This document shows positions 22,410 to 32,574 of a stretch of DNA of 64,000 bases, piece by piece; the stretch's first letter is position 1, and each line of letters opens with the position of its first letter. A model generated the notes under the pieces. The model was given only the letters and a program-made list of their open reading frames with translations. It was not told the origin of the DNA and ran no database searches. The translations under genes and the position numbers were made by a program. This stretch comes from Mesorhizobium sp. GTDB taxonomy: Bacteria > Pseudomonadota > Alphaproteobacteria > Rhizobiales > Rhizobiaceae. The stretch covers positions 16,260 through 80,259 of the forward strand of contig NZ_JAFKIC010000114.1 of assembly GCF_017306585.1 (NCBI RefSeq), in the 5' to 3' direction.

Positions 22410-22435
22410 CGGCAAGGCTCTACCGTGCCTTGCCG
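22410..22435. terminator. Hairpin between convergent stop codons
   Basis: Perfect 8-bp stem (CGGCAAGG at 22410-22417, CCTTGCCG at 22428-22435) with a 10-base loop. It begins 5 bases after the cysteine-desulfurase-like stop and runs into the last codons of the deacetylase gene on the other strand. No T-tract is present, so termination is only suggested. Confidence 0.4.
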
Positions 22436-23448
22436 CCGAACCCGGTGAGGAATGCGGTGAGATTGTCACCGAGCGCATCGCAGAGATAGCCGCCTTCCTG
22501 GACGATGACCGTCGGCAAACCCAGTTTGGCGATGGCCTCGCCGATGCGCGAGAAGCCCGGCGTCGTGACCGAAAGCCCGCCGAACGGGTCTCCCTCGAAG
22601 GCATCCAGTCCGAGCGCGACGACCAACGCATCCGGCGAGAAGGCGCGGATGCGCTGGAACGCGACGCCAAGCGCTTCGAGAAACGCCGCGTCGGCGGATT
22701 TGCGCGGCAGCGGCAGGTTGAAGTTGTAGCCGAGCCCCGGGCCTTCGCCGCGCTCGTCCGCGTGACCCCAGAAGAACGGATAGAACCGCACAGGGTCGGC
22801 ATGCAGCGATACGGTCAGCACATCGGGCCGCGCGTAAAAAATGCCCTGCGTGCCGTTGCCGTGATGCAGATCGACATCGAGGATCGCCACGCGCGCCGCC
22901 TGCCTGCGCAGGACCTGCGCGGCGACCGCCGAGTTGTTGATGAAGCAGAAGCCGCCGGCGACGTCGGCGAAGGCATGGTGGCCGGGCGGCCGGCACAGCG
23001 CATAAGCGGCCGGTGCGCCTGACATCACCGTTTCCGCTGCCTCCACCGCGCTCCACGCGCTCCACAGGGCGCTTTCCCACGTGTCCCGGGAGATCGGGCA
23101 GGCCGTGTCGGCCATGTGATAGCCGGCCTGGCCGACGGCGGAGGCCGGATATGAACCTGTGCGTGCGATCGGGTGGATGTTGGGGATCACCTCGGCGGAA
23201 GCACCTTCGATACGCTGCCAGCGCGCAAAGATGTGCTCGAGAAAGTCGAGATATTCAGGCGTATGCACTGCCGAGACAGGCCCAAGCCCATGATTTCCCG
23301 GTCGTTCGATCACGCACCCAGCGGATTTTGCGCCGGCTAACAATCTTTCGACGCGCTCCGGTTTTTCCGGATTGGGTTGCGGGGCGCCGCTGGAAAGAAA
23401 GGCCTTGGGGTCGTGGCGCTTCTGTTCCTGCGCGTAAAAGGCTTTCAT
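22420..23448 (-). CDS. Histone deacetylase family protein, acetylpolyamine amidohydrolase type
   Basis: A 342-residue arginase/deacetylase-fold amidohydrolase. The active site is complete: CRPPGHHAF (His157/His158), zinc ligands in DVDLHHGNGT (Asp193, His195) and Asp282 in ALGLDAFEGD, and the transition-state Tyr321 in QEGGYLC. Length and spacing fit bacterial acetylpolyamine amidohydrolases, which remove acetyl groups from acetylputrescine, acetylcadaverine and similar amines. Its start overlaps the stop of the upstream GNAT gene by ATGA (23445-23448), so an acetylase and a deacetylase are translated together. Substrate choice is inferred from family resemblance. Confidence 0.93.
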   Translation of the reverse strand: MKAFYAQEQKRHDPKAFLSSGAPQPNPEKPERVERLLAGAKSAGCVIERPGNHGLGPVSAVHTPEYLDFLEHIFARWQRIEGASAEVIPNIHPIARTGSYPASAVGQAGYHMADTACPISRDTWESALWSAWSAVEAAETVMSGAPAAYALCRPPGHHAFADVAGGFCFINNSAVAAQVLRRQAARVAILDVDLHHGNGTQGIFYARPDVLTVSLHADPVRFYPFFWGHADERGEGPGLGYNFNLPLPRKSADAAFLEALGVAFQRIRAFSPDALVVALGLDAFEGDPFGGLSVTTPGFSRIGEAIAKLGLPTVIVQEGGYLCDALGDNLTAFLTGFGGKAR

Positions 23449-23948
23449 TCCTGCTCCCCATTTTCCGGCGCGTCGGCGAAGGCGAAAAACGCATCGCCGA
23501 GGATCTTCTGAGTCTGTTCGTAGCTCGACCAGGCGATGCCCAACCGTTCATAGAAAGCCTTGGCGCCCTCATTGTCGGTGTCGACGGAGAGCCTGAGATA
23601 CACGCCGCCATCCCTACGGCACTCGGCCGCGACCCGCCGCAGCAGCCGCTCGCCGATCTTGCGGCCGCGAAAGCGATCCTCGACATAGAGGTCCTGCACA
23701 TAGACGCCGGGCCTTCCCATCCAGGTCGAGAAGATCGGAAAATACAGGCAAAGCCCGGCGAATTCGCCGTCGATCTCGGCGATCAGCGTCGAGAAGGACG
23801 GTTTTTCGCCGAAGCCGTAGCGGCGAAGGTCGTCAGGGGTCGAAATGATCTCCTGATGCGCTCCGATATGGGTGCCAAGCCTGAGCAGCGCGGCGTGGAT
23901 GGTGTCGACGTCTTCAATCCGGCCGGGTCGGAGCGTGATCGTACTCAC
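23445..23948 (-). CDS. GNAT family N-acetyltransferase
   Basis: A 167-residue acetyl-CoA-dependent acetyltransferase starting MSTITLRPGRIEDVDTIHAA. The core shows YVQDLYVEDRFRGRKIGERL, containing the acetyl-CoA pyrophosphate loop (R-x-R-G-R-K-I-G), and the final GAKAFYERLGIAWSSYE. It resembles diamine (spermidine/spermine-type) N-acetyltransferases, including LYFPIFSTWMGRPGVYVQ, a segment typical of that subgroup. It is coupled to the deacetylase gene by an ATGA overlap, which fits a polyamine substrate. That substrate is an inference. Confidence 0.9.
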   Translation of the reverse strand: MSTITLRPGRIEDVDTIHAALLRLGTHIGAHQEIISTPDDLRRYGFGEKPSFSTLIAEIDGEFAGLCLYFPIFSTWMGRPGVYVQDLYVEDRFRGRKIGERLLRRVAAECRRDGGVYLRLSVDTDNEGAKAFYERLGIAWSSYEQTQKILGDAFFAFADAPENGEQE

Positions 23949-23969
23949 GACAGGTGCGGCGCCAAGGCG

Positions 23970-24123
23970 CCCCCCTCTGTCCTGCCGGACATCTCCCCCT
24001 CAAGGGGGGAGATTGGCAGTTCCGAAGCTTCGACGAACTCCGTGACGCTGGTGATTGGCGAAACCGCGTGCGGCATCCAATCTCCCCCCTTGCGGGGGAG
24101 ATGGCCGGCAGGCCAGAGGGGGG
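23970..24123. repeat. Pair of 47-bp inverted repeats (rhizobial intergenic palindrome)
   Basis: The left copy (23970-24016) and right copy (24077-24123) are reverse complements with about four mismatches, separated by 60 bases. Each copy is itself a palindrome around TCTCCCCC-TCAA/GCAA-GGGGGGAGA, so a large cruciform or stem is possible. The whole element fills the gap between the BKACE gene and the GNAT gene and is of the kind seen repeatedly between genes in Mesorhizobium and relatives. Confidence 0.85.
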
Positions 24124-24157
24124 TGGGACGGAACGCCAGCATTTCAGACCATCATCA

Positions 24158-25087
24158 CTAGAAAGCCACCCGGTCGCCACCCTTAAGCGCCAGCATGTCG
24201 CGCGCCTCGGCCGGGGTGGCAACCTCCAGCGACAGCCCATCGAGGATACCACGGATGCGGCGCACCTGGTCGGCATTGGATTTCGCCAGCTGTCGGCCAT
24301 CGTAGAGGCTGTCTTCCAGCCCGACGCGGACATTGCCGCCCATGGCCGCGGCGATCGAGATCAGCGGCATCTGGTTGCGGCCGGCGGCCAGCACCGAGAA
24401 CTGGTAGCTGTCGCCGAACAGTTTGTCGGCGATCCGCTTCATGTGGATGAGATTGTCCGGATCGGCGCCGATGCCGCCCAGAATACCCAGCACGAACTGG
24501 ATGAACAGCGGACCGGACACCAGCCCGCGGTCGCGGAAATGCGCCAGCGAATAGAGGTGGCCGACATCGTAGCATTCGAATTCGAAGCGTGTGCCGCAAC
24601 CCTTGCCGAGTCTCTCCAGTACGCCTTCCATGTCGGCGAACGTGTTCTTGAAGATGGTGTCGCGGGTCGCTTCGAGCAGCTTCGGCTCCCATTCATGCTG
24701 CCATTCGCGCGGCTTGTCGAGCATCGGAAACAGCGCAAAGTTCATCGAGCCCATGTTGAGCGAGCACATTTCCGGTTGTGCCCGCAACGGCGCCGCCAGC
24801 CGCTGGTCCAGCGTCATCAGCGAGGAGCCGCCGGTGGTGATGTTGATCACCGCATCGGTCGCCTGCTTGATGCGCGGCAGAAACTGCATGAACACGTCGG
24901 GATCGGCGGTTGGCCGGCCATCCCTCGGGTCACGGGCATGAAGATGCAGGATCGAGGCGCCGGCTTCGGCGGCCGCGATCGCATCCGCCGCGATCTGGTC
25001 CGGCGTCACCGGCAAATAGGGGGACATCGATGGTGTATGGACCGAGCCGGTGACGGCGCAGGTGATGATGACTTTGCGCGGCGCCAT
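24158..25087 (-). CDS. BKACE family beta-keto acid cleavage enzyme
   Basis: A 309-residue zinc-dependent TIM-barrel enzyme of the 3-keto-5-aminohexanoate cleavage (Kce/BKACE, formerly DUF849) family. It condenses a beta-keto acid with acetyl-CoA and splits it to acetoacetate and a new acyl-CoA. Zinc ligands are His48 and His50 in LHLHARDPRDGRP and Glu258 in VRVGLEDSLYDG; NITTGGS and GDSYQFSVLAAGRNQ are also conserved. It is the last gene of a seven-gene operon after a class III aminotransferase (4-base gap), which could make its beta-keto acid substrate. The exact substrate class cannot be read by eye. Confidence 0.93.
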   Translation of the reverse strand: MAPRKVIITCAVTGSVHTPSMSPYLPVTPDQIAADAIAAAEAGASILHLHARDPRDGRPTADPDVFMQFLPRIKQATDAVINITTGGSSLMTLDQRLAAPLRAQPEMCSLNMGSMNFALFPMLDKPREWQHEWEPKLLEATRDTIFKNTFADMEGVLERLGKGCGTRFEFECYDVGHLYSLAHFRDRGLVSGPLFIQFVLGILGGIGADPDNLIHMKRIADKLFGDSYQFSVLAAGRNQMPLISIAAAMGGNVRVGLEDSLYDGRQLAKSNADQVRRIRGILDGLSLEVATPAEARDMLALKGGDRVAF

Positions 25088-25091
25088 TGTG

Positions 25092-26468
25092 TTACCCCCG
25101 GCTTTCGACCGGCAGGTCGAGTTCGCCGGCCAGAACTTCCAGCGAGTCGCCGATGATGGAGACGATCTCGCCGACCTGCTCGCTGGTGACGATCATCGGC
25201 GGCGCGACCATGAAATTGTCACCGTCGACGCCGCCCTTGACCTTGCGGCCGTAAATGATCAGTCCGCGCTCATAGGCGAGATCGAGCAGGCGTTGCGTTG
25301 CTTTCCTGCTTTGGTCGATCGGTTTCAGCGTCTCCGGATCGGCGACCATCTCTGCTCCCGTCAGCAGGCCTTTGCCCCTCACGTCGGCGATGAACGGGAA
25401 GCGCTTCTTCAGCCCTTGCAGCCCCTCCATCAGCACGTCACCCATGGCTGCCGCATTGGCGATCAGGTCGAGCCGGTCCATTTCACCGAGCACCGCCAGT
25501 CCGGCGGCGCAGGCCAGCGGATTGCCGGCATAGGTATGGCCATGCTGGAAACCGCCCGAGGCGAGCAGCGGCTGCACCAGGCGCATAGGCGCCGCGAGCG
25601 CGCCGAGCGGCGCGTAGCCCGAGCCCAGGCCTTTCGACAGCGCGACGATGTCGGGCTTGCAATTCCAGTGATCGCCACCGAGGAACTTGCCGGTGCGGCC
25701 GGCGCCGCTCATCACTTCATCGTGGATCAGCAGAATGCCATAGCGGTCGCAGATCTCGCGCACCCGTGCGTAGTAACTATCCGGCGCCACAAGCGCGGCG
25801 GTGGCGGCGCCGCCGATCGGCTCCATGATGAAAGCCACGACGCTTTCCGGTCCCTCGGCGAGGATCTTCTCCTCCAGCAGGTCGGCATAGCGCACGCCGC
25901 GCTGTTCCATCGAAAGGTTGTCGCGGTCGCGCCAGGCGGTAGGCGCCGGAACGGTCGGCATCACCCGCATCATCGGCTCGAAGGTTTCGGCCAGCGCGTC
26001 GTCGCCGGTGATCGAGAGCGAGCCGAGCGTGCCGCCATGGTAGGAGGGGAAACGCGTGATCACCTTCCAGCGGGATGCCTGGCCGGTGGCCACGGCCCAT
26101 TGCCGCGCCAGCTTGATGCAGGATTCCGTCGCTTCCGAGCCGCCCGAGACGAAGAAGATGCGGTCCATGCCTTCCGGCAGCTTGCCGGCGAGTTCGCGCG
26201 CCAGTTCTTCCGCCGGCTCGTTCTCGAAATGAAGCCGGTACGCGAAGGTGGCGCGATCCATCTGCCGCTTCATGGCGTCGAGCACGTTGCGGTTGGAATG
26301 GCCGATATTGGCGACCATCGGTCCGCTCGAGCCGTCGATGAAGCGGCGTCCGTCCCGCGTCCACATATAGATGCCTTCGGCGCGGTCGATGAGCGGCCGG
26401 CGCAGGCTGGACAGGTAGAAGAGATGCGAGTCGCGCCGGGTTTCGGCTGGTATCTGGGCTTTCGACAT
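25092..26468 (-). CDS. Class III (omega) aminotransferase
   Basis: A 458-residue PLP-dependent aminotransferase of the AGAT/omega family. The PLP Lys is K279 in IVALSKGLGSGYAPLG; the pyridine-nitrogen Asp is in LLIHDEVMSGAGRTG (Asp250); SGGSEATE and the C-terminal GKGLLTGAE are typical. The ATG at 26468 is chosen because it gives MSKAQIPAETRRDSHLFY, the usual family start, and lies 1 base after the upstream stop. Such enzymes convert primary amines or beta/omega-amino acids to aldehydes or keto acids. Placed before the BKACE gene, it is likely to make a beta-keto acid from a beta-amino acid; this is inferred. Confidence 0.93.
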   Translation of the reverse strand: MSKAQIPAETRRDSHLFYLSSLRRPLIDRAEGIYMWTRDGRRFIDGSSGPMVANIGHSNRNVLDAMKRQMDRATFAYRLHFENEPAEELARELAGKLPEGMDRIFFVSGGSEATESCIKLARQWAVATGQASRWKVITRFPSYHGGTLGSLSITGDDALAETFEPMMRVMPTVPAPTAWRDRDNLSMEQRGVRYADLLEEKILAEGPESVVAFIMEPIGGAATAALVAPDSYYARVREICDRYGILLIHDEVMSGAGRTGKFLGGDHWNCKPDIVALSKGLGSGYAPLGALAAPMRLVQPLLASGGFQHGHTYAGNPLACAAGLAVLGEMDRLDLIANAAAMGDVLMEGLQGLKKRFPFIADVRGKGLLTGAEMVADPETLKPIDQSRKATQRLLDLAYERGLIIYGRKVKGGVDGDNFMVAPPMIVTSEQVGEIVSIIGDSLEVLAGELDLPVESRG

Positions 26469-26469
26469 G

Positions 26470-28110
26470 TCAGGACTTTCCGAGATAGCGATCGAGGACA
26501 TTTCGGGTGACGCGTTCCACCATCGGGTCTTGCCGCAGCAGGCCGGCCACCCATTCGCAGCTTCCGGCATGGAACACTTCGCCTTTGCCGCGTGAAAAAT
26601 TGACGATCATGCCATTGCTGCGTTTGACTTTTTCGAGACTGGCGTCGCTGCGGTCGCCAAACAAGGTTTCGGCGCTGAAGCGGCCATCCTCGTCAGTCAG
26701 GAACTGGTCTTCGATCGGAATGTCAGCGCTTTCCTCGACCTGGCTTGCCATGCCGACGGCGAGAACCTGCAAACCATCCGGTGCGCCGCTGGTCGCGGTC
26801 GGGTAGGGCAGGCCGCCCCTTATCTCGAAATCCAGCCCGTCCACCTCATAGCCATAGACGTGGCTGTCGGCGCCGAGCAGGTCGCCATAATAGATGCCGG
26901 TGCCGGCGAATGCCCAATGTTCAGGCCGGTAGACGGGGAAACCGCGCGCACCGCGCGGCGCGCAGCCGCCCCAGCCTGCATAGAGGCCGCGCGTGGCGTT
27001 GAGCCCGAAAGTCTCGGCGCCCGGCCGGCCGATTTCGGGCGCTTCCCAGGAGTTGGTGGCGCGCGTCACGTCACCGTCGCGGTAGATCGGATCTTCGGCG
27101 CGGGCGCGGTACTTGTAGCAGACCTGGCGGCGGCCTTCGTCCTCAAGACGCGTCTGCCACATGAAATTGCCGGCGAAGCGCGCCGCATGGCCGCCGCGCT
27201 CGACATAGCGATCGACGGCGTCGCGCATTTCCCAGGTCCAGTACTCGTCATGGCCGACAAAGACCGCGCAGTCGTAGCCGTCGAGAATTTCGGGCGAGAA
27301 ATGCAGATCGTGCTGGCTGGCAAGATCGACGGCGTAGCCGGCCCGTTCGGCGAAGCGAAACATATGGCTGTCGTAGCTTGCCCAGCCCGACGAGGCGTAT
27401 TTCTTGGAATGACCGGTGGCGAGCGCCCATTCCATATGGGGATAGCGCGGCACCGTCTTCGGCGGCACCGCAACCTCCAGCGGCACGCGCGGCGCGTCCT
27501 TGGGCAGTACGACGAAGCCACGACACCAGGGACGCTGCGTCGACACGATGGGCGAATAAAGGTTGCGATCCGGCCCGGTGATGCCCTGATAATGGTTGGA
27601 ACCGCCCCAGGTATTGTAGGCGAGCCAGGTGCCTGTCGCGGCGACCTGCAGCACCCGGCCAGGTTTCTTGCCGGCCTGAGGAGAGACGATGAAAATGTGG
27701 TGGCTCTGGATCGGCTTGCGGTCACGGCCATCGGCTGTCAGCGTTATCCGATAGGCACCGGACGGCCAGTCGCTGCCGACACGGAATTCAAACGAAGCTT
27801 CCCAGCCGCAGCCTTCGGCCGAACATTGATCCGGACTGTCCTGCCAGCGCGACGCGATGTCCGACTTTTCGAAAACCTTTGTCTCGGTGCCGCCGTCGCG
27901 AATGATCGTCATGTTGAAGGATGGCGCGGTTGAGCTGACATGCAGCCTCACCGTTTCGCCGGCGCGATAGGAAAACCGGTCGCTGTAGCACCAGATTTCG
28001 CCGCGCTCGCCGTCCATCCCGGGCCATTCGTAATAGTGGCCGCGCACGGCGTGGCGGCGCTGCTCCTCCGTCAGTCCGAAATCCGGGAATTGTGTGGGTA
28101 ATCTGGTCAT
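26470..28110 (-). CDS. N,N-dimethylformamidase large-subunit-like protein
   Basis: A 546-residue protein with a beta-rich first part (about 30-140: GEIWCYSDRFSYRAGETVRL and FEFRVGSDWPSGAYRITLTA) and a larger second part with LQVAATGTWLAYNTWGGSNH, YDCAVFVGHDEYWTWEMRDA and HAARFAGNFMWQT. These match the beta (large) subunit domain of N,N-dimethylformamidase, an iron amidohydrolase. The small alpha subunit of that enzyme is not found next to it. The position between an amino-acid ABC transporter and an aminotransferase suggests it hydrolyses an amide or N-substituted amino compound. It lacks a signal peptide. The substrate is unknown. Confidence 0.85.
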   Translation of the reverse strand: MTRLPTQFPDFGLTEEQRRHAVRGHYYEWPGMDGERGEIWCYSDRFSYRAGETVRLHVSSTAPSFNMTIIRDGGTETKVFEKSDIASRWQDSPDQCSAEGCGWEASFEFRVGSDWPSGAYRITLTADGRDRKPIQSHHIFIVSPQAGKKPGRVLQVAATGTWLAYNTWGGSNHYQGITGPDRNLYSPIVSTQRPWCRGFVVLPKDAPRVPLEVAVPPKTVPRYPHMEWALATGHSKKYASSGWASYDSHMFRFAERAGYAVDLASQHDLHFSPEILDGYDCAVFVGHDEYWTWEMRDAVDRYVERGGHAARFAGNFMWQTRLEDEGRRQVCYKYRARAEDPIYRDGDVTRATNSWEAPEIGRPGAETFGLNATRGLYAGWGGCAPRGARGFPVYRPEHWAFAGTGIYYGDLLGADSHVYGYEVDGLDFEIRGGLPYPTATSGAPDGLQVLAVGMASQVEESADIPIEDQFLTDEDGRFSAETLFGDRSDASLEKVKRSNGMIVNFSRGKGEVFHAGSCEWVAGLLRQDPMVERVTRNVLDRYLGKS

Positions 28111-28118
28111 TGGCTTGC

Positions 28119-28883
28119 TCAGGCGGAAAGGTATTTCTTCAGGAAACTGCGGGTGCGCTCCTTCCGTGGGGCGCGAAAAATCTCGACCGGCGGGCCTTCC
28201 TCGACCACGACGCCGCCATCCATGAACAGCACGCGGTCGGCGACCTCGCCGGCAAAACGCATTTCATGCGTTACGATGAGCATGGTCATGTGCTCGGCGG
28301 CAAGCTGTTTCATCACCGCGTTCACCTCGTCGACCAGTTCCGGATCAAGCGCGGAGGTCGCCTCGTCGAACAGCATGACCTTGGGCTGCATGGCGAGCGC
28401 TCGCGCAATGGCAACGCGTTGCTTCTGGCCGCCGGAAAGTCGCGACGGATAGGCGTCGATCTTTTCGGCCAGCCCGACCTTCGAAAGCAGGTTGTGCGCG
28501 AGCGCCCTGGCGTCGGCCTTGGGCATGCCTTTGAGGATGACCGGCCCCATGGTGATGTTCTCCAGCACGGTCAGGTGCGGGAACAGATTGAAGTGCTGGA
28601 ACACCATGCCCATCTGCTGGCGCACCTTGTTGATGTGCCGCTCGAAGGCCTGGCCATGCAGAGGCTGGTTGACCTGCACCCCGTCGAGCCAGACCTCGCC
28701 GCCGTTCAAGGTCTCCAGATGATTGATCGAGCGCAGCAGCGTGCTTTTGCCCGATCCGCTCGGGCCGATAATGGCCACGATCTGCCCGCGTTCGACCGAA
28801 AGGTCGATACCCCTCAGAACCTCGACGGCGCCGAAGGATTTGCGTGCGCCGCGAACCTCGGCCATTGGCTGCGTTGCGCTCAT
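28119..28883 (-). CDS. Amino acid ABC transporter ATP-binding protein
   Basis: A 254-residue polar amino-acid type ABC ATPase (GlnQ/HisP class). Walker [11 protein letters not shown]-loop in [19 protein letters not shown], signature LSGGQKQR, Walker [13 protein letters not shown] and the switch His in [10 protein letters not shown] are all intact. It energises uptake with the two permeases and binding protein of the same operon. Its start overlaps the upstream permease stop by ATGA (28880-28883), and the amidase-like gene starts 8 bases after its stop. Confidence 0.96.
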
Positions 28884-29542
28884 CGGGAAACCTCCACCTG
28901 CCGTTCAAACCGATGCAGGGCCGCCTCCAGCACGAGGTTCAGGATGTAATAGAGCGCGGCGGCCGTGATGTAGAACTCGAACGGCCGGAAGGTTTCGCTG
29001 ATCGCCAGCTGCGCTGAATGGACCAGTTCGGCGATGCCGATGACGGACACGATGGAAGATTCCTTCAACAGCGCGATCAGGTTGCCGCCGATCGGCGGCG
29101 CGGTGTTGCGGATGGCCTGCGGCACCACGACGTAGCGCAATGTTTGCCATTTGCCGAAACCGATGCTGCGCGCACCCTCCGTCTGGCCGGCGTCGACGGC
29201 CACGATGCCCGCGCGGATGACGTCGGCATTGTAGACGGCGAAATGCAGGCCGAGCCCGATGATGCCCGCCGCCAGCGCCGGGATATCGATGCCGATCTGT
29301 ACCAGGCCGAAATAGATCAGGAACAGCTGCAGCAGCAGCGGCGTGCCCATGAACACCCACATGAAGGCGCGCACGGGATAGGCCAGGATCGCCGGAGCAT
29401 AGAGGACGGCAACGGCGAATAGGATGCCGAAGAGAAAGCTCAGCGCACCCGCCGAAACGGTCAGGACAGCCGTCCACCAGGCGCCTGTCAGCAGAAGATC
29501 CCAGTAGGGCGCGACGACAGTGAAATCCAGACCTTGCATCAT
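28880..29542 (-). CDS. Amino acid ABC transporter permease
   Basis: A 220-residue inner-membrane permease of the polar amino-acid (HisM/GlnP) family with about five transmembrane segments: around [20 protein letters not shown], the second near [20 protein letters not shown], and later ones. The EAA loop, which docks the ATPase, is [20 protein letters not shown]. It pairs with the next permease (29552-30199) to form a heterodimeric pore. The two genes are 9 bases apart. Confidence 0.95.
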
Positions 29543-29551
29543 GTTCCCCCG

Positions 29552-30199
29552 TCAGACGATGGCAAAGCGTTTGTCGAGCAGGTCGACGACGCGGGCGACG
29601 GCATAGACCATGATCATGTAGAGCAGCGCCGCGACACCAAATATTTCGAACGGCTTGTAGGTGGAGCCGATGAAGCGCTGGGCTGTGTAGGTCAGTTCGA
29701 CGACCGAAATGGTGGATACCAGCGCCGAACCCTTCAGCAGGGCGACGGTGTTGACGCCGAGCGGGCGGATCATCAGCCTTGCCGCCTGCGGCAGCACGAC
29801 CTTGCGCAAGGTCTGGAAGCGGCTGAAGCCGATGGTGCGGGCAGCCTCGGTCTGGCCCCGGTCGACAGCCATCACAGCGCCACGGATCGATTCCGCCATG
29901 TACGCGCCGATGTTGAGGCCAAGGCCGATGACGCCGGCCGAGAAAGGCTCCAGGTTGATGCCGATCTGCGGGCCGCCGAAATAGAGCACGAACAGCTGGA
30001 TCAGGCAGGGCGTGCCGCGAAAAAGGCTGACATAAAGCGTGCCGACTGCGCGCAGGATCGCCGATCTCGACATCTTTGCCGTGGCCGCCAGCGCTGCCGC
30101 CGCCAGCCCCAGGACGAGGGCCAGTGCGGTCAGTTCCAGCGTTACCAGAGCGGCTTCCACGAAGAACGGGAAGACACGGCTCATCAAGGAGAAATCCAT
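29552..30199 (-). CDS. Amino acid ABC transporter permease
   Basis: A 215-residue permease of the same polar amino-acid family. Transmembrane segments include VEAALVTLELTALALVLGLA near the start and a last one around GVAALLYMIMVYAVARVVDL. The EAA loop is TIGFSRFQTLRKVVLPQAAR, and the conserved SLFRGTPCLIQLFVLYFG is present. It is the second gene of the operon, 65 bases after the binding-protein gene. The gap may allow more binding protein than permease to be made. Confidence 0.95.
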   Translation of the reverse strand: MDFSLMSRVFPFFVEAALVTLELTALALVLGLAAAALAATAKMSRSAILRAVGTLYVSLFRGTPCLIQLFVLYFGGPQIGINLEPFSAGVIGLGLNIGAYMAESIRGAVMAVDRGQTEAARTIGFSRFQTLRKVVLPQAARLMIRPLGVNTVALLKGSALVSTISVVELTYTAQRFIGSTYKPFEIFGVAALLYMIMVYAVARVVDLLDKRFAIV

Positions 30200-30264
30200 A
30201 GGGTCGGCCCCTCAGGAGTGGTGATCGGCCCCGGCCGGATTGGCTCGCCCGGGGCCGGATGACA

Positions 30265-31047
30265 TCAGCGTATGTCGCTGCCGACCCACTGCTTGGAAAT
30301 CTTCTCGTAGCTGCCGTCAGCCATCATGTCGTCCAGCGCTTTCTGCATGGCGGCCTTGAGTTCGGGATTGTCCTTGCGGATGGCGATGCCGATGGCGACG
30401 CTGCCGCCTTCGATGTTGGGCGTGTCGAGCTTGCGCACCTTCTCGCCGGTTTCCTTGACGGCGACCATGACCGGGATGTTGTCGACGACGATGGCGTCGA
30501 CGCGGCCGGCCTTCAGCTCCAGCAACAGCTCCGGCAGGCCCTTATAGGTGCGGACATCCCAGCCGCCCTGCTGGCGGGCCCATTTCTCGTGCGTCTCGCC
30601 CAGCGTCACGCCGAGGGTCTTGCCCTTGAGGTCGTCGAGGCTCTGCACCTTGGAATCCTGGCTCACGAAAACCGCGCGCCCGGCGTGGTAATAAGGGCCG
30701 ACGAAATCGACCACCTTCTCGCGCTCCGGCGTGATCGTCATCGAACCGACGACGGTGTCGTATTTGTTGGCGAGCAGGCCAGCGATGATGCCGTCCCAGG
30801 CGATGGTGATGATGGTGCCCTTGACGCCGATGCGCTCGGCGATCGCCTTGCCGATATCGGCGTCGAAACCGACGACCTCGTTCTGGTCGTTGACGAAATT
30901 GAAGGGCGGATACTGGCCGCTCATCGAAATCTTGAGCTCACCCGCCGCCTTGATCTTTTCGAGATCGTCGGCCCGGGCCGAGGCCGAATTGAAAGTCGAC
31001 GCCAGCAGCAGCGCCGCCACGGCGATGCCGGAGAGTATCTTGTTCAT
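30265..31047 (-). CDS. Amino acid ABC transporter substrate-binding protein
   Basis: A 260-residue periplasmic binding protein (family 3). The ATG at 31047 starts a clear signal peptide, MNKILSGIAVAALLLASTFN, ending near ASA-RA. The mature part has GELKISMSGQYPPFNFVNDQ, FDADIGKAIAERIGV, YDTVVGSMTITPEREKVVDF and the acidic ligand pocket residues of the family (R in TPER, D in DAIVVDN). The frame is open upstream to 31953, but that part lies opposite the divergent LysR gene and is not coding. First gene of the operon; a LysR-type site precedes it. The ligand is unknown but probably a small amino compound. Confidence 0.95.
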   Translation of the reverse strand: MNKILSGIAVAALLLASTFNSASARADDLEKIKAAGELKISMSGQYPPFNFVNDQNEVVGFDADIGKAIAERIGVKGTIITIAWDGIIAGLLANKYDTVVGSMTITPEREKVVDFVGPYYHAGRAVFVSQDSKVQSLDDLKGKTLGVTLGETHEKWARQQGGWDVRTYKGLPELLLELKAGRVDAIVVDNIPVMVAVKETGEKVRKLDTPNIEGGSVAIGIAIRKDNPELKAAMQKALDDMMADGSYEKISKQWVGSDIR

Positions 31048-31127
31048 AGGATGTCTGTCCTCTGGATGGAGCGCGAAGGCTTGTTCTTGGGAGGCGTTGG
31101 GGCGCTCTCCTGACGACAATGATTGCG

Positions 31128-31148
31128 TTTGCCGAAGCATTGCGCAAA
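31128..31148. promoter_or_regulatory. Candidate LysR operator in the divergent promoter region
   Basis: An inverted repeat TTTGC-N11-GCAAA at 31128-31148 lies in the 135-base gap between the ABC binding-protein gene (minus) and the LysR gene (plus), 35 bases before the LysR start. It has the T-N11-A layout expected for LysR-type regulators. It probably controls both directions, but no binding data exist here. Confidence 0.5.
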
Positions 31149-31182
31149 TAGATAATGGAAATAGGGAGCATAGATCTGAGGA

Positions 31183-32142
31183 ATGGCTTTGCCGCGCCCC
31201 GAACGTCTGGTCTGGGACCTGGACTGGAACCTCTTGCGGACGTTCGTCGTCATCGCCGAGGTCAAGAGCATCACCCGCGCCGCCGAGCGCCTGAACCTCA
31301 AGCAACCCAGCGTCAGCAATGCGCTGCGACGCCTGGAGGACCGGGTCGGGCGCCGGCTGGTGGAGCGCGATGCGACACGTTTCGAGCTGACCGAGGTGGG
31401 ACGGCTGATCTACGAGCAGAGCGTCGAGGTGTTCGGCTCGATATCGCAACTGCCGCTGCTGATGCGCGGTATCAGCGACGACGTCACCGGCCATGTCATG
31501 ATCGCCACCGCCAGCCATGTCGTCTCGCCTCTGTTCGACCGTGCCTTGGCGGAATTCCACCGCGATTATCCGCGCGCCAGCATCACCATCTCGGTCGCGG
31601 CAAGCACCGAGGTGGCCAAGCAGGTGAGGGAGCGTCGCGCGTCCTTCGGCATCTGCCTGGTCAGCCAGCGCGATCCGGCGCTGGACTATGCGATGGTCTA
31701 CCGCGAATTCTTCGGCTTCTTCTGCGGTCCTCGTCACAGGCTTTATGGCAAGACCGGCCTGACACTTGCCGATCTGCGCGGCGAACCCTCGGTGTCGTTC
31801 CAGACCGATCACATTTCGGATGCGCTGCGGCCGGTCGCGCTGCTGCGCAGTGAGGCGAGGCTGAATGCCGATGTCGTGGGCGTCTCCTCGAGCCTGGAAG
31901 AGGTGCGGCGCATGATCGTCGCCGGGCTCGGCATCGGTCCGCTGCCGCTGCATGTCGCGCGGCGCGATGTGACGGATGGGATATTGTGGCGGCTGCCGCC
32001 CTATGATGCGCCGCCGGCGATCGATATCTTCCTGCTGACCAATCCCGACAAAGCGATGAATCGCGCCGAGAAGGCGCTCCTGTCGGGGCTGCAGGCGCTG
32101 ATCGCCGAGACCCCGCTCGAGGAGCGCATCTACAACGCCTGA
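31183..32142 (+). CDS. LysR family transcriptional regulator
   Basis: A 319-residue LysR regulator. The N-terminal winged helix-turn-helix is DWNLLRTFVVIAEVKSITRA, AAERLNLKQPSVSNALRRLE and the following wing; the ligand-binding domain from about residue 100 contains VMIATASHVVSPLFDRALAE and ends with the second lobe near GLGIGPLPLHVARRDV. It is divergent from the seven-gene ABC transporter/amidase/aminotransferase/BKACE operon and is the likely activator of it. The inducer is probably a substrate or intermediate of that pathway; this is inferred from position. Confidence 0.94.
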   Translation: MALPRPERLVWDLDWNLLRTFVVIAEVKSITRAAERLNLKQPSVSNALRRLEDRVGRRLVERDATRFELTEVGRLIYEQSVEVFGSISQLPLLMRGISDDVTGHVMIATASHVVSPLFDRALAEFHRDYPRASITISVAASTEVAKQVRERRASFGICLVSQRDPALDYAMVYREFFGFFCGPRHRLYGKTGLTLADLRGEPSVSFQTDHISDALRPVALLRSEARLNADVVGVSSSLEEVRRMIVAGLGIGPLPLHVARRDVTDGILWRLPPYDAPPAIDIFLLTNPDKAMNRAEKALLSGLQALIAETPLEERIYNA

Positions 32143-32157: not shown

Positions 32158-32574
32158 CTATTCGACGAGGAGGGCCGCCGCGCGCTCGCGCATCGGCTCG
32201 TCCAGCGCCACCGAGCTTCGTGCTGCAAGGTCGAAGCGCACGCTGGTCGTCCGGCTCGATGCGTGGACGATGTCGTCCAGCGATCCGGACATCACCTGTT
32301 CGAAACTGATGGAGGAGCGGCCGACCTTCACGACGTGCGAACGGATGGTGAGCAGCGATCCCGCCTTCGTTTCATGGCGGTAGTCGATTTCGGTGCGCAC
32401 GTCGGCCCAGCCGATCTGCGATCCCGCATGGGTCTCCTGTCCGGCTATATGGCCGAGAATCTGGAAGCTCGCATCATCGAACATAGCCGCGTAGTGGCGC
32501 ACATTCATGTGCCCCATCACATCGCACATCCAGGGGTGGGCCATGCCGACGAAGGTAACGAGGGATTTGCTCAT
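32158..32574 (-). CDS. Acyl-CoA thioesterase (hotdog fold, 4HBT type)
   Basis: A 138-residue single hotdog-domain protein starting MSKSLVTFVGMAHPWMCDVM. The catalytic-type segment is DVMGHMNVRHYAAMFDDASF, with the Asp/Asn and His positions of the 4-hydroxybenzoyl-CoA thioesterase family, followed by DVRTEIDYRHETKAGSLLTI and RSSISFEQVM. It is convergent with the LysR gene 15 bases away. Acyl-CoA hydrolysis is likely; the acyl group is not known. A link to the BKACE pathway, which makes an acyl-CoA, is possible but not shown by operon structure. Confidence 0.88.
   Translation of the reverse strand: MSKSLVTFVGMAHPWMCDVMGHMNVRHYAAMFDDASFQILGHIAGQETHAGSQIGWADVRTEIDYRHETKAGSLLTIRSHVVKVGRSSISFEQVMSGSLDDIVHASSRTTSVRFDLAARSSVALDEPMRERAAALLVE

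Follow-up and report, generated by a model that had tools for sequence, protein, structure and literature searches.

A recurring rhizobial operon with a beta-keto acid cleavage enzyme probably serves the catabolism of beta-lysine or a close diamino beta-acid

Which compound is broken down by an operon that encodes, in a row, an amino acid transporter, a putative amide hydrolase, a class III aminotransferase and a beta-keto acid cleavage enzyme (BKACE)? The question was raised by a 64,000-nucleotide stretch of Mesorhizobium sp. DNA (contig NZ_JAFKIC010000114.1, positions 16,260 to 80,259; here called the window), in which the original prediction had placed seven such genes and had seen a set matching no described pathway. 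That last claim was not borne out: with the adjoining genes for a GNAT acetyltransferase and a deacetylase included, the set matches the acetylated route of beta-lysine degradation. We propose, with a probability of about 0.62, that the operon serves the catabolism of beta-lysine (3,6-diaminohexanoate) or of a diamino beta-acid very similar to it, either in free form or bound as an amide. A search of the open-licence literature found no description of this route; the scope of the search was limited, hence this is no proof of absence.

The proposed reactions can be assigned gene by gene. The terminal amine would be acetylated by the GNAT protein (23445-23948, minus strand; PF00583), and the resulting N6-acetyl-beta-lysine would be converted to 3-keto-6-acetamidohexanoate by the aminotransferase (25092-26501, or with a later start at 26468, minus strand; PF00202). 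BKACE (24158-25087, minus strand) would cleave this product with acetyl-CoA to 4-acetamidobutyryl-CoA and acetoacetate. A 4HBT_2 thioesterase encoded beyond a divergent LysR gene (32158-32574, minus strand; PF13279, 4.6e-14), which also weakly resembles the end portion of carnitine 3-dehydrogenase, is the candidate for hydrolysis of 4-acetamidobutyryl-CoA to 4-acetamidobutyrate. The latter would be deacetylated to 4-aminobutyrate by a deacetylase of the acetylpolyamine-amidohydrolase type (22420-23448, minus strand; PF00850). Ahead of these steps the ABC transporter would import beta-lysine or the close diamino beta-acid, and the dimethylformamidase-like (DMF-like) protein, where present, would release beta-lysine from an amide. 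What we infer here is beta-lysine as the substrate, together with its chain length, every single reaction and the function of the DMF-like protein. An aminotransferase and a gene for beta-keto acid cleavage, both expected of an acetylated beta-lysine pathway, are present, the latter being missing from some loci.

The order of aminotransferase and BKACE had been read as conversion of a beta-amino acid to a beta-keto acid, which is then cleaved. This reading is backed by an exchange between BKACE and CoA-transferase A+B in aminotransferase loci. A genome scan for the aminotransferase clade was analyzed for the best 80 of at least 579 confirmed candidates, judged by record title mostly from Rhodobacteraceae and other roseobacters; ten loci with less than 4.5 kb downstream were excluded and 70 were counted. 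BKACE was found in 55 of the 70 and CoA-transferase A+B in nine, with no locus having both and six having neither. The amidohydrolase-type deacetylase was likewise found in 55 and an ArgE-type deacylase in seven, again never together, and eight loci had neither. Fisher values were 8e-8 for BKACE and CoA-transferase and 5e-6 for the two deacylase types, relatedness being ignored. GNAT was present in 51 loci. In Rhodobacteraceae M382 (L107) the aminotransferase is accompanied by CtfA, CtfB, an ArgE-type deacylase and a thiolase, and in Parasedimentitalea (L108) by BKACE and the deacetylase. Compared with their counterparts in the Bacillus subtilis operon, whose genes stand in the same order, the M382 aminotransferase shows 40% identity, CtfA 49%, CtfB 46% and the deacylase 35%. 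On an aminotransferase tree of 112 rows (loci with at least 4 kb downstream, 18 of them without a BKACE or CoA-transferase label) the BKACE/CoA-transferase state changes three times, or four times if rows with neither are scored; two changes are forced by supported branches. There are two independent pairs on supported branches, in both of which the deacylase type moves the same way, and three on all branches.

In six of the 80 loci (L139-L141, L148, L150 and L152) the aminotransferase is followed by genes for an amidohydrolase and an alanine-racemase-like protein, and GNAT was not detected. These loci are perhaps set up for an already acetylated substrate.

The window BKACE matches PF05853 over the whole protein (6.4e-107) and NF053538, the 3,5-dioxohexanoate equivalog, with 523.8 bits against a cut-off of 430. 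The known 3-keto-5-aminohexanoate BKACE of lysine fermentation, which the original prediction had named as its counter-case, was rejected by sequence: the score with NF052387 was 224.2, below the cut-off of 382. Relatives in PDB are 3e49, 3e02 and 8rio (the last with 1.1e-117 and 395.9 bits). For 8rio, that is BKACE15, one paper reports neutral C5-C6 beta-keto acids as accepted, 3,5-dioxohexanoate among the confirmed substrates, activity on malonate semialdehyde as well, and a physiological role stated as unknown (PMC11961710). Another paper (PMC4922564) divides BKACE by substrate into non-charged, KAH and positively charged groups. The neutral C5-C6 substrates of BKACE15 fit with an acetylated, neutral C6 keto intermediate. 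On its sequence scores the window BKACE fits the neutral-substrate model and not that of lysine fermentation.

The same gene order was sought in other genomes, and the block was found to recur in other genera of the family, so chance does not account for it. Sequence comparison itself shows which genes make up the set, that the set recurs, and that BKACE and CoA-transferase A+B replace each other. In Rhizobiaceae the recurring block consists of DMF-like protein, class III aminotransferase, BKACE (often missing), GNAT and deacetylase, and the presence of the DMF-like and transporter genes is variable. The aminotransferase of the other genera is 66-81% and BKACE 79-90% identical to that of the window. 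Among the 61 genomes searched are 37 of the window's genus, and 35 of these carry the DMF-like gene with at least 79% identity. In 31 of 34 same-genus loci GNAT and then deacetylase follow as in the window, the remaining three being cut by contig ends. BKACE is present in 23 of the 34, absent from the spot in nine and undetermined in two. A same-genus locus without the DMF-like gene (L059) still has aminotransferase, GNAT and deacetylase together. For the family, the DMF-like protein of Sinorhizobium medicae was matched at 1e-60 in 73 of 394 sampled genomes, and 40 loci from 39 genomes, three of them same-genus, were picked from these matches. The aminotransferase was found at 66% identity or more in 31 of the 40 loci (three same-genus); 28 of these 31 have GNAT, 28 the deacetylase and 19 BKACE. 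A thioesterase homologue was found in 7 of the 40.

Loci lacking BKACE were compared with those having it for a second copy elsewhere in the genome. Another BKACE (at least 56% identity) was present in all 24 genomes without the local gene and in 17 of 44 with it (p = 1.6e-7 with no correction for relatedness; the 68 genomes compared carry the locus, whole or for the greater part). G014 and G024 were excluded from this count as contig ends. G016 was scored as having the local BKACE, though that copy contains an in-frame TGA, and G006 (no DMF-like gene), G271 and G210 (no aminotransferase at the spot) and G331 (no GNAT or deacetylase there) were scored as loci without it. BKACE paralogues fetched from five genomes (L133-L136, L138) had no aminotransferase-GNAT-deacetylase partners. 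Replacement of an absent local gene by such paralogues is therefore no more than a correlation.

The DMF-like protein (26470-28110, minus strand) belongs to the DMFase/N-acyl-beta-amino-acid acylase superfamily (PF20254, 5.4e-70) and is a putative amide hydrolase. A profile of eight DMF-like relatives matches N-acetyl-(R)-beta-phenylalanine acylase (8i5a, 3.2e-18) and DMFase (6lvd/6lvb, 1.8e-15). The DMFase iron site is given as 2-Tyr-1-carboxylate, formed by Y399, Y440 and E521, in PMC7686228. In an alignment to P. aminophilus DMFase, which is the sole basis for these assignments, Y399 corresponds to Y165 and E521 to E289, and the nearby histidine H287 is also kept. Identification as DMFase proper was rejected, since one iron ligand is lost (Y440 aligns to Q192) and no gene for the small alpha subunit lies beside that for the large one (no search for it was made in the rest of the genome); the adjacent positions are taken by the ATPase and aminotransferase genes. 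A relative with 46% identity is convergent to an aminotransferase-BKACE-GNAT set (L218, on a contig outside the family sample). Another, with 60% identity, is encoded in one run with genes for an AMP ligase, a kynureninase and a tryptophan dioxygenase (L096, 9131-14486) and is perhaps a kynurenine formamidase. Because this relative sits in a tryptophan-degradation operon, more than one pathway makes use of the DMF-like family. That the window protein could be a formamidase was suggested by this single locus and is kept as a caution.

No DMF-like gene was found in the fetched stretches of Shinella PSBB067 (L102), which carries transporter, aminotransferase, BKACE, GNAT, deacetylase, LysR and thioesterase, and Phyllobacterium (L103), which has aminotransferase, BKACE, GNAT and deacetylase. 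Because both loci carry the aminotransferase-BKACE-GNAT-deacetylase set without it, the amide step is not obligatory, although the remainder of the two genomes was not searched; the amide-splitting function first suggested for the DMF-like protein is plausible in view of its best solved relative. These loci also bear on another explanation, in which the DMF-like protein releases a monoamine N-acyl beta-amino acid, such as one of the beta-phenylalanine or beta-alanine type, which then undergoes transamination and cleavage, with GNAT and deacetylase being unrelated. The acylase relationship and the action of BKACE15 on malonate semialdehyde (PMC11961710) would agree with it. However, it is precisely the DMF-like gene that is missing from L102 and L103, while GNAT and deacetylase belong to the block in nearly all same-genus loci and in nearly all family-sample loci with the aminotransferase, as counted above, and we regard this explanation as improbable.

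The link to beta-lysine itself came from rhizobial plasmids. Rhizobium sp. C104 (L113) encodes CtfA, CtfB, ArgE and thiolase proteins that share 61, 68, 69 and 64% identity with those of M382, and there these genes adjoin a lysine-2,3-aminomutase-like gene (TIGR03822, 556 against a cut-off of 396); the same cluster encodes a GNAT 40% identical to that of the window. A class III aminotransferase is encoded about 7 kb away on the other strand, and its closest structures are 2yku and 6iz9 (2.6e-129), followed by 4ao9, all beta-transaminases. R. bangladeshense (L118) has the same set as C104, with the aminomutase-like gene about 8 kb from GNAT. Overall, the window GNAT is about 40% identical to GNATs near lysine-aminomutase-like genes, and all nine plasmid records with a GNAT of 40-43% identity carry the aminomutase clade (79-100%), within about 20 kb in eight. 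Aminomutase-like genes are common, occurring in 127 of 394 Rhizobiaceae, with two annotated beside epmA/genX, so that their presence alone means little and position is the argument. Relatives of the plasmid GNAT in Chimaeribacter and Mitsuaria have other neighbours and were set aside. No lysine 2,3-aminomutase gene was found in the window operon, and one KamA-family gene lies elsewhere in the genome; an aminomutase in the operon is not needed if beta-lysine is imported.

Some other diamino beta-acid, such as a C5 homologue or hydroxylated beta-lysine, could undergo the same chemistry. The chain length is not fixed, and the BKACE relative takes both C5 and C6 substrates according to PMC11961710. 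Against this, the plasmid-linked gene is lysine-2,3-aminomutase-like and Bacillus operons of similar make-up carry lysine 2,3-aminomutase, and we consider such a substrate unlikely.

The deacetylase is a member of the histone-deacetylase family, and its best PDB matches (3men, 9gkz, 6phr and 3q9b) are acetylpolyamine amidohydrolases, in agreement with the assigned type; no NCBIfam model matched it at E 0.001. This similarity could point to polyamine catabolism, in which GNAT and the amidohydrolase would cycle acetylpolyamines and the aminotransferase would deaminate them. A polyamine-type transporter at the one relative locus that was typed (L199) could be taken in the same sense, but it was also counted for beta-lysine. 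Polyamine breakdown yields no beta-keto acid, which leaves BKACE and its alternative, CoA-transferase A+B, without a role, and makes this explanation very improbable.

Transport genes lead the operon. An amino-acid-type solute-binding protein (SBP_bac_3, 30265-31053), two polar amino acid ABC permeases (29552-30199 and 28880-29542) and an ATPase (28119-28883) are all encoded on the minus strand. Opposite them lies the divergent LysR-type regulator (31183-32142, plus strand), which is co-localised in many relatives. From the binding protein to BKACE the gaps are 65, 9, -4, 8, -32 (or 1 if the aminotransferase starts at 26468) and 4 bases. GNAT and deacetylase follow on the same strand after a gap of 209 bases (23949-24157) and overlap each other by 4 bases. 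An inverted repeat is located in this gap, and its 18-base core is unique in the window with up to two mismatches allowed. The operon is presumably expressed as one unit. All seven genes and LysR were found where the original prediction had placed them and on the same strands, but it had left GNAT, deacetylase and thioesterase out of the unit, the 209-base gap being the probable reason for its ending at BKACE. The transporter, also claimed as an operon part, is present in the window but not constant, the order binding protein-permease-permease-ATPase occurring in 8 of 34 same-genus loci. Such variability of the transporter and the DMF-like gene would be expected if these neighbours did not cooperate and they and the rest served different substrates. 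Transporter, DMF-like protein, aminotransferase and BKACE are nevertheless found in the same order in 10 of the 40 family-sample loci, only one of the ten being same-genus, and independent functions seem most improbable.

Clusters that may make beta-lysine compounds were also observed. In L110, L113 and L118 aminomutase-like genes lie near genes annotated as biotin-carboxylase-like, and the one analysed in L118 encodes an ATP-grasp protein whose C-terminal domain is of the L-amino acid ligase kind. In the window genome (L137; contig C88, 45000-62000) a Pls/PosA-family synthetase (TIGR02353, 924 against a cut-off of 423) is encoded near a KamA-family gene, a phosphopantetheinyl transferase and a TonB receptor; the KamA-family gene scores above the TIGR00238 cut-off and below those of the named aminomutase models. 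The synthetase was found in 11 of 23 same-genus genomes, in seven of them within 5 kb of a KamA-family gene, two with an in-frame stop in the KamA match. This suggests that the L137 cluster makes poly- or oligo-beta-lysine; epsilon-poly-L-beta-lysine is named in PMC9606270. It is conceivable, though distinctly doubtful, that the DMF-like protein represents a novel type of acylase whose metal site is altered, freeing beta-lysine from beta-lysyl amides or isopeptides, and that the operon feeds on such compounds of soil or nodule bacteria, either poly- or oligo-beta-lysine or products of the plasmid clusters with ATP-grasp ligase and aminomutase-like genes, in a rhizopine-like exchange.

Several observations weigh against degradation of beta-lysine by the window operon. 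Among the 70 aminotransferase loci, GNAT was not found in 19, BKACE in 15 and either deacylase in eight. About three changes on the tree and two supported independent pairs are too few for significance. The aminomutase gene was absent from the fetched stretches of all 80 aminotransferase loci and of L020-L099. Of the 13 plasmid records that carry the aminomutase clade, four lack a GNAT of this kind at 1e-12, and the stretch from Sinorhizobium meliloti L110 yielded no CoA-transferase, ArgE or thiolase gene. The window aminotransferase is 57-72% identical to those of four related operons and 24-27% identical to those of the aminomutase clusters; in this comparison the L119-L131 rows are longest open frames, unconfirmed as genes, and those of L119, L120, L127 and L131, which gave no match, were not used. 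It was rejected as a YodT orthologue, since its identity to YodT is 38% and that to other class III aminotransferases reaches 42%, and the window GNAT was rejected as a YodP/AblB orthologue, with no BLAST match to it and no match to the AblB model at E 0.001. The glutamine at the Y440 position and the tryptophan-degradation context of the L096 relative tell against the role given to the DMF-like protein. Finally, no result fixes the chain length or the substrate.

If the beta-lysine assignment is right, candidate genes become available for N6-acetyl-beta-lysine aminotransferase, 3-keto-6-acetamidohexanoate cleavage and 4-acetamidobutyrate deacetylation. It would provide a physiological role for the kind of BKACE to which BKACE15 belongs and a reason for retention of the locus in rhizobia and roseobacters. 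It would also predict a new acylase activity, in a route that can be tested gene by gene.

Among known systems, N-acetyl-(R)-beta-phenylalanine acylase (8i5a, 8huy) and the DMFase large subunit (6lvb, 6lvd) share a homologous catalytic domain with the DMF-like protein, which differs in being shorter, in its weakly aligned first part and in Q192 at the place of Y440. BKACE15 of Paracoccus denitrificans (8RIO, 8RIP, 9HNF) is a close sequence relative of the window BKACE, and its substrate 3,5-dioxohexanoate gives the name of the equivalog, a model scored on the window BKACE only. In PMC6522883 YodT is listed as uncharacterised and the role of KamA as undetermined. The Bacillus kamA operon has in common with the window a class III aminotransferase, 3-oxoacid handling, a deacylase and an acetyltransferase. 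Its gene order is yodT-yodS-yodR-yodQ-yodP-kamA. It contains CoA-transferase A+B and a peptidase-type deacylase where the window has BKACE and an amidohydrolase-type deacetylase; in addition, the window GNAT has no BLAST similarity to YodP and the window operon no aminomutase. The closest parallel in chemistry is the beta-lysine route of Pseudomonas B4, reportedly worked out in the Barker laboratory in the 1970s-80s, which is said to proceed by acetylation of the terminal amine, transamination of the beta-amine, cleavage with acetyl-CoA, thioester hydrolysis and deacetylation. A single protein was reportedly described there as a deacetylase-thiolesterase. We know of no genes for these steps, the activities of which were purified more than 40 years ago and are apparently still orphans. 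The window offers one candidate gene for each step and, in contrast to the Pseudomonas work, specifies a BKACE, an amidohydrolase-type deacetylase, a DMF-like protein and a transporter.

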